Shown piece after piece: positions 10,601-16,845 of a DNA stretch of 64,000 nt; within the stretch, counting starts at the first letter, position 1; every line of letters begins with the position of its first letter. This stretch comes from Gilvimarinus sp. DA14. GTDB lineage: Bacteria > Pseudomonadota > Gammaproteobacteria > Pseudomonadales > Cellvibrionaceae. The DNA is taken from positions 186,001-250,000 of the forward strand of contig NZ_CP100350.1 in assembly GCF_024204685.1 (NCBI RefSeq), written 5' to 3'. Under the pieces are notes generated by a model. That model saw nothing but the letters and a program-made list of their open reading frames with translations, was not told where the DNA came from and searched no databases. Both the position numbers and the translations under genes were made by a program.

Positions 10601-11425
10601 ATGAAGAACCACCTGTTGTTAACGGCCGTTTTCGCGGCCGTTTTCTCTGTCAGTACACAGGCTCAGGTTCAGGTAGTGGACTCCCCGGTGCAGAAAGCAT
10701 CGGGGGCGTCCGCTCCCGCTGCTAACGGCAACCTGAACACCAACCAACAAGCCGAACTTTTCTATCAGCTCCAGACGTTACAGCAAGAAGTGATGAACCT
10801 GCGCGGTCTGGTGGAAGAGCAAGCGTTCGAATTAAAGCGGTTAAAGCAGCAGCGCTTGGACGATTACCTTGATCTGGATCGTCGTATCAGCGCGTTGACC
10901 ACCGGTACTACCCCTGAAACATCTCCTGCGGCAACCTCTTTTACGCCTAGCGGCTCTGCTGCTACGACTGCGCCCGCCGTTGCAGCCGGCAATCCAGAAT
11001 CAGTTTCATCGACTACATCGGTGGCGGCAGCACTGCCTTCTGGTGTCAGCGAAGGTGCCAGTGAAGCTGAAGTTTATGGCGCCGCGTATGATCTGCTCAA
11101 GCAGCGTCAAATCGATGCGTCGGTAGCTGGTTTTAAAGCCCACTTAGAGCGCTTTCCACAGGGCGAGTATGCTTCTAACAGTTACTATTGGCTGGGTGAG
11201 ATTTACCTGCTGAAAAATGACTTGCCTGAAGCGCAGCGCTGGTTCGGCGATTTGCTGGCGGAATTCCCGGACAGCCGTAAGGTGCCGGACGCCCAGTTCA
11301 AATTGGGTAAGGTCTACCACCTGCAGGGGCAAAATGATCGTGCCCAAGAGTTGCTGAATATTGTCGCTGCAAGCAATGCCGATGCGTCGCGCCTAGCGAA
11401 ACAGTATTTACAGGAAAACTTCTAG
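10601..11425 (+). CDS. cpoB: cell division coordinator CpoB (YbgF)
   Basis: A 274-residue periplasmic protein: signal peptide (about 1-21, ending STQAQ), an N-terminal trimerising coiled coil (about 47-88), a Ser/Thr/Ala-rich linker, and C-terminal TPR repeats (about 150-274) seen as AAYDLLKQRQIDASVAGF, YWLGEIYLLKNDLPEA and FKLGKVYHLQGQ. CpoB couples Tol function with PBP1B-driven septal wall synthesis. It starts 10 bases after the pal stop and closes the tol-pal operon. Confidence 0.95.
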   Translation: MKNHLLLTAVFAAVFSVSTQAQVQVVDSPVQKASGASAPAANGNLNTNQQAELFYQLQTLQQEVMNLRGLVEEQAFELKRLKQQRLDDYLDLDRRISALTTGTTPETSPAATSFTPSGSAATTAPAVAAGNPESVSSTTSVAAALPSGVSEGASEAEVYGAAYDLLKQRQIDASVAGFKAHLERFPQGEYASNSYYWLGEIYLLKNDLPEAQRWFGDLLAEFPDSRKVPDAQFKLGKVYHLQGQNDRAQELLNIVAASNADASRLAKQYLQENF

Positions 11426-11461
11426 CTTAAAACTTTTAGTTTATTGCGCCACGCTTTGCTG

Positions 11462-11498
11462 GCCGGGGCTTTACCCCGGCTGCGCTTGGTCTTTTTTT
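11462..11498 (+). terminator. probable terminator of the tol-pal operon
   Basis: A 7-bp GC stem (11462-11468 with 11474-11480, loop CTTTA) lies 36 bases after the cpoB stop. A T-run follows at 11492-11498, but about ten bases separate it from the stem, which is looser than a textbook terminator. Confidence 0.5.
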
Positions 11499-11532
11499 AA
11501 TGCTTTAAATCAGCGGTTGCCAAATTGCGGGC

Positions 11533-11785
11533 AAAAAAAAGGCCCACTTATGTGGACCGCGGGTGAACTGTTTTCCGTGTTCGAAACGTGAGCTTGATTC
11601 CTTAGCCCTAGCGTCCTGCTGATATGTCCTTAACCCCTGTCGTGGTTAGCTCGGCGATCCTGTCCGTTGTTGACTATCCCTAAATCCCTGTCTTCCTTGC
11701 TTTTGCTTGTTTTAATCCCTGGCCTGCCTGGCAAAACGTCCTGTGAACCATCCTGGCCCCGTCGGCATCCCTGTAACGTCCCTGT
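11533..11785 (-). ncRNA. CsrB/Rsm-like regulatory small RNA (CsrA/RsmA titrator), candidate
   Basis: Read on the minus strand, about 253 nt carry roughly 13 GGA-type motifs at short intervals. Examples: CAGGGACG (11777-11784), CAGGGATG (11766-11773), CCAGGATGG (11748-11756), CAGGACG (11737-11743), ACAGGGATT (11684-11692), TAGGGATAG (11675-11683), CGGACAGGATCG (11655-11666), AAGGACAT (about 11624-11631) and CAGGACG (11612-11618). This density of AGGA/GGGA motifs is the hallmark of CsrB/CsrC/RsmXYZ RNAs, which sequester the translational repressor CsrA/RsmA. The 3' end is an intrinsic terminator: stem 11541-11547 with 11552-11558, then eight Us. The start near 11785 is inferred from a GATACT -10-like hexamer (11792-11797) and a GacA-type palindrome centred about 65 bases upstream. 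No credible protein frame explains the region. The exact 5' end and family name are unproven. Confidence 0.8.
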
Positions 11786-11841
11786 GAATACAGTATCGTC
11801 CAACTGTAAGGTTTGGAAAAGGCGCTATTTACGCTTCTTTC

Positions 11842-11859
11842 TGTAGGACATTTCCTACA
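11842..11859 (-). promoter_or_regulatory. GacA/UvrY-type upstream activating palindrome
   Basis: A perfect inverted repeat of the form TGTAGG-N6-CCTACA. It matches the established GacA-box pattern TGTAAG-N6-CTTACA with a single symmetrical A-to-G change. Its centre is about -65 relative to the predicted start of the minus-strand GGA-rich RNA, the spacing seen for GacA-controlled rsm genes. It also lies between that RNA and the ppnN stop. Confidence 0.75.
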
Positions 11860-11895
11860 CTGCCATAGCATTATTGCAACGATGTGAAGCTACTG

Positions 11896-13308
11896 TTACA
11901 CAATTCGGTAGCAGGGAGTGTAGTGGCTTCCCGGCAGCTTCATGCGGCCCTGTTGTTGGAATGCGGTCAACAGGGCATCAACCGGTTGCATAATGCTCTG
12001 CTCGCCACTAATTTCGAATAAGCCGTGCTTTTCAATCGCGCGAATCCCTTCTTCTTTTACGTTCCCCGCCACAATGCCGGAAAAGGCTCGTCTAAGATTG
12101 GCCGCCAGGGTGTGGTTGTTCAGGTCGCGGCTTAGCTGCAGGTTGCTCATATTAGTGTGGGTAGGGGCAAACGGCTGCTGAAAGTCCGGCGATATCTTGA
12201 GTTGCCAGTTAAAGTAGTAAGCATCGTCAGTGTTTTTACGAAAGGCCCGCACCGATGCAATCCCCGCAACCATGGCGTGGGCGACGGCTTCAGGGTTATC
12301 GATAATAATCTGGTATTTTTGCTGCGCTTCGGGGCCTAGAGTCGCACCGATAAACTGATCGATTTGGCGAAAGTAATCAGCGGCGCTGGATGGGCCGGTG
12401 AACACTAAAGGGAAGGGCAGTTCACGGTTGTCTGGGTGAAGCAGAATGCCGAGTAAATAGAGGATTTCTTCCGCCGTCCCCGCGCCGCCGGGAAACACCA
12501 CGATGCCATGGCCAGCCCGCACAAAAGCTTCCAGACGCTTCTCGATATCTGGCATGATCGCCAGCTCGTTAACAATAGGGTTGGGCGCTTCGGCGGCGAT
12601 AATACCGGGTTCGGTGATGCCGATATAACGCCCAACGCCCAGACGTTGCTTGGCGTGGCCGATGGTGGCGCCTTTCATCGGACCCTTCATTGCGCCCGGG
12701 CCGCAACCCGTGCAGATATCCAGGCCGCGCAGGCCCATTTGGTAGCCGACTTTTTTAGTGTAGTCGTATTCGCCCATACTGATGGAGTGCCCGCCCCAGC
12801 AGACCACTACATTGGGGTCCACTTTAGGACGAATGATGTCGGCGTTACGCAGCATATGAAACACGGCGTCGGTGGTTGCCTCGGGGGCTGCGCTTTGCAG
12901 TACTCGGCTCAAGCGGTCATCGCTACTGGCAAATATTACGTCGCGCAATACCGCAAACAAGTGCTCGCTGATGCCGCGAATCATTTTGCCATCGACGAAA
13001 GCACTGGCGGGAGCGCCTTTTACATCCAGCTTTATCCCGCGCTCCTCCTGGATCACGCTGATAGCGAAGTCCGGGTAGCGTTCCATCAATTCCTTACCGT
13101 CATCCAGAGAGTTGCCGCAGTTGAGTACCGCGAGCGAACAACTGCGAAACAATTTATAAAGACCGCTTTGGCTGACGTCTAAAAGCTTTGCTACTTCCGC
13201 CTTAGAGAGAATATTCAGTTGGTCTTGCGGCGAGATAATGGCATCGATGGTGTGGTAGGTACCGCTTTCACGATGAGTGTGCTGATAAGGTAACTGACTT
13301 TGAGGCAT
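11896..13308 (-). CDS. ppnN: pyrimidine/purine nucleotide 5'-monophosphate nucleosidase PpnN
   Basis: A 470-residue member of the LOG (Lonely Guy/lysine decarboxylase-like) family, which hydrolyses nucleoside monophosphates to ribose 5-phosphate and free base; the E. coli enzyme (YgdH, 454 residues) is activated by (p)ppGpp. The PGGxGTxxE motif is present as PGGAGTAEE (about residues 274-282). Also visible are the N-terminal domain typical of PpnN and the dinucleotide-like segment CWGGHSISMGEYDYTKKVG. An AGGAAG ribosome-binding site lies about 10 bases before the ATG at 13308. It is convergent with nothing; its 3' end faces the promoter region of the CsrB-like RNA, which is on the same strand. 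Confidence 0.92.
   Translation of the reverse strand: MPQSQLPYQHTHRESGTYHTIDAIISPQDQLNILSKAEVAKLLDVSQSGLYKLFRSCSLAVLNCGNSLDDGKELMERYPDFAISVIQEERGIKLDVKGAPASAFVDGKMIRGISEHLFAVLRDVIFASSDDRLSRVLQSAAPEATTDAVFHMLRNADIIRPKVDPNVVVCWGGHSISMGEYDYTKKVGYQMGLRGLDICTGCGPGAMKGPMKGATIGHAKQRLGVGRYIGITEPGIIAAEAPNPIVNELAIMPDIEKRLEAFVRAGHGIVVFPGGAGTAEEILYLLGILLHPDNRELPFPLVFTGPSSAADYFRQIDQFIGATLGPEAQQKYQIIIDNPEAVAHAMVAGIASVRAFRKNTDDAYYFNWQLKISPDFQQPFAPTHTNMSNLQLSRDLNNHTLAANLRRAFSGIVAGNVKEEGIRAIEKHGLFEISGEQSIMQPVDALLTAFQQQGRMKLPGSHYTPCYRIV

Positions 13309-15141: not shown

Positions 15142-16845
<1,704 letters not shown>

Follow-up and report, generated by a model that had tools for sequence, protein, structure and literature searches.

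RNAs of the CsrB/Rsm type are expected in gammaproteobacteria that carry GacA and CsrA, and the Cellvibrionaceae are a family known for its marine and soil polysaccharide degraders. Kulkarni et al. are said to have predicted RNAs of this kind in 2006. CsrB of E. coli (RF00018) is a long, GGA-rich, CsrA-binding RNA with an 18-bp UvrY site upstream, and the Pseudomonas RNAs RsmY, RsmZ and RsmX are likewise characterised by GGA sites, by a GacA box of the form TGTAAG-N6-CTTACA, and by the presence of several sister RNAs per genome. For CsrB/CsrC of Marinomonas mediterranea (PMC8523701) and CsrB1/CsrB2 of Shewanella (PMC3171408), the passages cited describe RNAs that were predicted from GGA motifs and a GacA box, and whose dependence on a BarA/UvrY-type system was demonstrated afterwards. 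Those RNAs belong to other lineages and come with expression data, whereas the Gilvimarinus RNA reported here is predicted from sequence. Among the best-ranked papers of the literature searches, no title or start of an abstract pointed to a Csr/Rsm sRNA from Gilvimarinus or Cellvibrio. The Teredinibacter turnerae genome paper, in the part cited, reports GacS, GacA and two CsrA homologues and does not name an sRNA there (PMC2699552).

The DNA analysed here is a stretch of 64,000 nt (the window) from the 3.96-Mb single-contig genome of Gilvimarinus sp. DA14 (G000:C1:186001-250000). A CsrB/Rsm-type regulatory RNA had been proposed for its minus strand from the letters alone, and this proposal is upheld by the elements of the locus, their conservation, covariation, and the protein partners that the genome appears to encode. 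We consider it very probable that the gene specifies a conserved RNA of this type acting as a CsrA sponge under GacA, based on the box, the fixed -10, the density and context of its GGA motifs, the terminator, the conservation in 8/8 Gilvimarinus, the covarying hairpins with AGGA loops, and these same partners. That the gene is autonomous, non-coding and unannotated, and a new member of a kind already known, is well supported. The features by which such genes can be recognised, namely an excess of GGA, an upstream GacA box, a terminator without an ORF, and CsrA together with GacS/GacA in the same genome, are all apparent.

Compared with CsrB of E. coli, the RNA is shorter (253 nt with 14 GGA versus 369 nt with 22), it has 2/14 rather than 12/22 of its GGAs in hairpin loops, and the centre of its box would lie at about -65 relative to the predicted start, as opposed to the -183/-182 given for the UvrY box of E. 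coli csrB in the passage cited (PMC4682653). In E. coli, too, csrB is found close to ppnN, but with syd and queF between the two, and for this reason nearness to ppnN is at most a possible sign of common origin. Among the Pseudomonas genes, the GacA site of rsmY (about -75) is near the Gilvimarinus layout and that of rsmZ (-196) is unlike it, according to the section cited for both (PMC4950607), while the -10 reported for P. chlororaphis is TAATCT (PMC3684763, as excerpted) in contrast to GATACT in the window. The Pseudomonas Rsm RNAs are also shorter than the window RNA, with rsmX-2 given as 110 nt in the portion cited (PMC7911923), and a second, short Gilvimarinus RNA described below is closer to them in size.

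The original prediction had suggested a search with the Rfam models of the class, and this did not bear it out: with E values of up to 10 allowed, no CsrB/Rsm model matched within 11400-12000, where a cmscan with all 4227 Rfam families at the same limit returned two unrelated weak matches, and the CsrB model did not match anywhere in the genome at this limit. No Rfam 15 model scored at or above its gathering threshold, either on the window RNA or in 20 related loci. We therefore place the RNA in the functional class and not in the RF00018 family, and Rfam-based annotation will miss these RNAs. Elsewhere in the window, the Rfam model 5_ureB_sRNA matches 15292-15577 on the minus strand (90.7 bits), antisense inside an ORF (15142-16845) that we take to encode a urease alpha subunit. 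Due to this position we set the match aside as an sRNA; it probably reflects coding conservation, the alternative being an antisense RNA.

The candidate RNA gene downstream of ppnN

The features of the locus, together with the second candidate RNA of the same genome, are collected in Table 1.

Table 1. Positions of the candidate RNA gene, its elements and its neighbours (window numbering unless otherwise given).
Feature	Position	Strand	Basis or remark
Candidate CsrB/Rsm-type small RNA, 253 nt, 14 GGA	11533..11785	-	GGA density, SELEX-like contexts, 8/8 Gilvimarinus
Putative GacA box (UAS) TGTAGGAAATGTCCTACA, perfect palindrome TGTAGG-N6-CCTACA	11842..11859	-	Relatives have a similar site here, 0-3 mismatches
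Linker element G-N7-C(C/G)NCT, here GTAAATAGCGCCT	11820..11832	-	Fixed register in family promoters
Predicted -10 hexamer GATACT	11792..11797	-	Exactly 44 nt past the box
Predicted intrinsic terminator GGUCCAC-AUAA-GUGGGCC-U8 (DNA: GGTCCACATAAGTGGGCC-T8)	11533..11558	-	Terminator scan; hairpin across the genus
Predicted hairpin GGGCC-AGGAU-GGUUC, AGGA in loop	11745..11759	-	Compensatory change in 2/5 pairs; 100% paired cells, 8 sequences
Predicted hairpin AGC-AGGAC-GCU, AGGA in loop	11610..11620	-	Compensatory change in 1/3 pairs; 95.8% paired cells
ppnN (nucleotide 5'-monophosphate nucleosidase), upstream neighbour, same strand as the RNA	11896..13308	-	NF038390, 744.7 bits vs cut-off 450
ybgF/cpoB-like gene of tol-pal cluster, convergent neighbour	10601..11425	+	TIGR02795, 80.9 bits, below cut-off 90.1
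Second candidate Csr/Rsm sRNA, ~110-120 nt	L046:2781 to ~2970 = G000:C1:2939280 to ~2939469		Perfect box, 44-nt linker, CATAAT, strong terminator

The 5' end of the RNA is predicted at about 11785 (+/- 2) from the position of the -10 hexamer and from the conservation of the first letters, (C)ACAGGGACG, and the spacing between box and -10 is 44 nt in 8/8 Gilvimarinus, with GATACT as the hexamer in seven and GAAACT in one. A sigma-70-like match upstream of the box, at 11899-11870 (9/12 matches), was set aside in favour of this conserved -10 at a fixed distance. The perfect palindrome described in the original prediction is present, and the distance of about 65 bp from it to the RNA start holds if measured from the box centre, whereas from the box end it is 56 nt. 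The strong intrinsic terminator was also confirmed: the terminator scan by itself is near chance for this region (2 found vs 1.0 expected), and the hairpin with its T8 stands at the 3' end of the RNA in 8/8 Gilvimarinus. Equally borne out were the lack of a reading frame, as stop codons occur in all three frames of the RNA, and the location beside tol-pal, the cluster of the convergent ybgF/cpoB-like gene.

On the minus strand, 11533-11785 holds 14 GGA and 12 AGGA/GGGA motifs, the latter number falling just below the roughly 13 first estimated for 253 nt, a count obtained if the whole of 11533-11859 is included. These 12 RGGA are the maximum over all 253-nt places on both strands of the window, where the next best place has 5, and dinucleotide shuffles of the region matched the observed counts in 6/2000 cases for GGA, 7/2000 for RGGA and 0/2000 for A(R)GGA. 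The contexts of these motifs are likewise distinctive. Measured against the CsrA SELEX consensus, RUACARGGAUGU in the passage cited (PMC7652899), the GGAs of the RNA agree on average at 4.43 of 9 free positions, versus 2.60 for the 1244 other GGAs of the window (a comparison set that leaves out about 11400-12000), and this mean was reached in 0/20000 resamples and in 0/2000 context shuffles; the GGAs of E. coli CsrB score 3.55 on the same scale.

Perfect TGTARG-N6-CYTACA sites occur only twice in the 3.96-Mb genome, and one of the two is the box in the window. With up to one mismatch allowed, sites are no commoner than those of a reversed control pattern (13 places genome-wide vs 14), and it follows that only the perfect sites stand out. 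The 11 one-mismatch sites were considered as sRNA promoters and rejected, with at most 5 RGGA per 200 nt within 450 nt downstream.

As for the partners, two CsrA homologues score above the Pfam cut-off, the first of them also above the NCBIfam csrA cut-off. The second, at G000:C1:1263815-1263979 (L002), is divergent and scores 53.4 bits. A GacA-like regulator (C1:865022-865657) is 48% identical to E. coli UvrY, and its best family is UvrY/SirA/GacA with 258.4 bits, below the NCBIfam equivalog cut-off of 280; it is followed by what we recognised by eye as, presumably, uvrC and then pgsA, which is the gene order at E. coli uvrY. A BarA/GacS-like kinase is found at C1:1010246-1012939 (36% identity over residues 5-907), and the score of its best family, 727.5 bits, is below the equivalog cut-off of 890.

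Transcription of the gene, its control by GacA, the binding of CsrA and the sponge function are what we infer from these features. GacS/BarA would phosphorylate GacA, the phosphorylated regulator would bind the 18-bp box, whose centre lies about 65 nt before the start, and RNA polymerase would transcribe about 253 nt from the promoter with its -10 located 44 nt past the box, up to the U8 terminator. The GGA sites, some of them in hairpins with an AGGA loop, could then bind several CsrA dimers, and the resulting fall in free CsrA would relieve or reverse CsrA control of mRNAs, with the RNA acting beside a second, shorter sRNA that has a GacA box of its own. If so, these findings would give the Gac/Csr switch its probable RNA partners in a family of polysaccharide degraders.

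Conservation, folding and competing explanations

A ppnN search of 58 genomes yielded 30 loci, with 19 further places of at least 50% identity left out (two of these being fragments of one genome). At least 7 RGGA in the 250 nt past ppnN were found in 11 of these loci, which correspond to 8/8 Gilvimarinus (DA14 included) and to L011-L013, and the other 19 had at most 5. In a second set, made of 80 named ppnN loci, 16 reached the same threshold, namely 6/6 with Gilvimarinus and 6/6 with Cellvibrio in the title, as well as Marinimicrobium agarilyticum and three metagenome bins. As the two sets share members (L087-L092 are six of the genomes of the first set and L101 is L013), they are not independent. 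Each of the 16 RGGA-rich named loci has a site resembling the box, with 0-3 mismatches, followed at 44 nt by a -10-like hexamer; the Marinimicrobium promoter is weak, with 3 mismatches in the box and GAGAAT as its -10. Two loci are intermediate: L095 has a box and CATAAT at 44 nt but only 4 RGGA, and L097 has 6 RGGA without a box. The remaining 62 named loci, with titles largely from Oxalobacteraceae and Methylococcales, have at most 6 (6 in L110 and L153). The expected conservation in relatives was thus found, in the form of an RNA after ppnN in 8/8 Gilvimarinus and also in Cellvibrio, with Marinimicrobium having the weaker box. The named ppnN proteins closest to that of DA14 are from Gilvimarinus chinensis (95%), G. 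xylanilyticus (91%) and G. algae (86%).

Of the alternatives we weighed, the one that fares best, which we nonetheless regard as quite unlikely, is that the GGA-rich stretch represents chiefly the ppnN mRNA's 3' UTR, and that the RNA is processed from it rather than independently started. The ppnN gene ends on the same strand only 36 nt upstream of the box, and the terminator scan of the region found no terminator-like site between ppnN and the RNA, which makes read-through plausible; a precedent may be RsmW of P. aeruginosa, for which an origin in the PA4570 3' UTR is suggested in the passage cited (PMC4950607). A pure 3' UTR, however, would have no need of a box, a linker element and a -10 held in fixed register in 8/8 Gilvimarinus and in Cellvibrio, and the second sRNA, which follows another gene, shares this layout of the promoter.

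The minimum-energy fold of the window RNA is no better than that of shuffled sequences (z +0.62), and we rejected it as evidence for being uninformative. For the eight Gilvimarinus sequences, with the genomes treated as unrelated, RNAalifold gives 28 pairs, 5 with double changes, and in four helices singled out here (among them the two hairpins with AGGA loops in Table 1) 99.3% of cells pair, with double changes in 4/18 pairs, a number reached by 2/500 shuffles, and a covariation score reached by 0/500. Further pair types in the four helices were not in excess over shuffles (328/500 reach the observed number). When the same helices are slid along the alignment, the paired cells fall to 25-56%. 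Two of the four present AGGA in a 5-nt loop, and for the hairpin at 11610..11620 this loop reads AGGA in 6/8 of the sequences.

With regard to the GGA motifs themselves and their placement in hairpin loops, the answer is mixed. In the window RNA alone, 2/14 lie in loops of stems of at least 4 pairs vs a null of 1.94, which rules out a claim of loop enrichment for this one sequence, whereas the genus total is enriched (40/127 vs 16.0 +/- 3.6 in 500 shuffles with a maximum of 27, genomes being counted as unrelated), as is E. coli CsrB (12/22 vs 3.5). For eight RNAs of the Cellvibrio/Marinimicrobium type enrichment is unclear, with 10 to 97 of 500 shuffles reaching the observed number. The GGAs of the window RNA are, on the other hand, unpaired beyond chance, with a level of 0.60 vs 0.49 in shuffled context, reached by 0/60, and for each of the seven further Gilvimarinus RNAs the observed accessibility is reached by 0 to 3 of 60 shuffles, with the exception of G003 (18/60).

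A less probable explanation still is that the box drives something else, such as a ppnN cis element or a small protein, and that the GGA richness is an incidental purine bias. The RGGA count does depend on composition, given the 7/2000 dinucleotide shuffles that reach it, and there is an ORF of 63 codons that overlaps both the box and the RNA's 5' portion. This ORF, however, starts upstream of the promoter and the RNA has stops in every frame, while the specific GGA contexts, the invariant GGA columns and the covarying hairpins argue against purine bias, so that we consider such an explanation very improbable. That a GacA-dependent, CsrB-like RNA acts here mainly by base pairing with mRNAs, instead of as a CsrA sponge, is the least credible of all, considering that base-pairing RNAs usually keep a seed and that among the eight Gilvimarinus RNAs (244-430 nt, mean column identity 48%) the sequence between the GGAs varies strongly while the first four GGA sites do not vary at all. 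The terminator of these eight RNAs is nearly invariant.

A second candidate RNA and a promoter pattern in the family

Interest in the presumed CsrA sponge is increased by its sister RNA, by a promoter rule that extends across the family, and by the linker element. The other perfect box of the genome (C1:2939280-2939297) begins 17 nt past the stop of a MotB-family gene and is followed, at exactly 44 nt, by CATAAT, and the putative RNA downstream carries its GGAs as AUGGAG, AUAGGGAUAU, CACGGAAC and AAGGAUC. This second RNA follows the same motB-like gene in 8/8 Gilvimarinus, with 0-2 mismatches in the boxes and a spacing of 44 nt in all eight, and is longer and has more GGAs in L060 and L061; in L069 (G020), the motB-like gene is followed by a box with one mismatch and by a GGA cluster, with no -10 at 44 nt. 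Like the first RNA, it did not match the Rfam CsrB/Rsm models. With a second GacA-box sRNA in the same genome, the activity of CsrA probably reflects the combined effect of two sponge RNAs.

From the Gilvimarinus and Cellvibrio promoters of these RNAs we derived the pattern TGTN5ATNTCNNACA-N44-NATAMT, which occurs at 48 places in 30/97 genomes, 29 of them among the 61 genomes of the family (DA14 included) and one among 36 elsewhere in the order, while the reversed pattern is found in 0/97; 32/61 family genomes have no match to this exact box and spacing. The pattern itself is free of GGA, yet 41/48 matches open onto a cluster of at least 4 GGA in the next 120 nt (15/15 in Gilvimarinus and 26/33 elsewhere), compared to a background of 8.6% of such windows, pattern matches among them. 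Such a rigid pattern offers a simple way to find many RNAs of this kind. Within the linker of the 41 GGA-positive promoters, G is found at position 10 in 40, and C(C/G)NCT at positions 18-22 in 35, as opposed to 2/41 in the best other register, with genomes counted as unrelated.

In the rsm promoters of Pseudomonas, the subject of Humair et al. in 2010, the linker reportedly matters. We tentatively propose, at a little short of an even chance, that the GacA regulon of the Cellvibrionaceae is read out through a rigid three-part promoter, common to the long and the short sponge genes, and made of the UAS, the linker element G-N7-C(C/G)NCT and a -10 at exactly 44 nt. The linker element would offer an additional contact, be it to another GacA dimer, to an accessory protein or to the alpha subunit of the polymerase, and in its absence the UAS would not activate. 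If this were true, the GacA-driven sponges of the family could be found by sequence, and a defined system would be available for the study of GacA activation at these promoters.

Seven matches to the pattern lack a GGA cluster. Three of these (L175, L203 and L214) bear C(C/G)NCT, as judged by eye, and may for this reason be GacA promoters of another kind. L175 and L203 (genus g26), together with L192 (G058), have the promoter pattern and 1-2 GGA in the 120 nt downstream, and these three are possibly GacA targets other than sponge RNAs. Finally, genome G008 has three matches to the pattern (L200, L199 and L170, on C17, C7 and C6), two of which precede long GGA clusters, with 19 and 11 GGA in 250 nt, in what appears to be a duplication of the long sponge.
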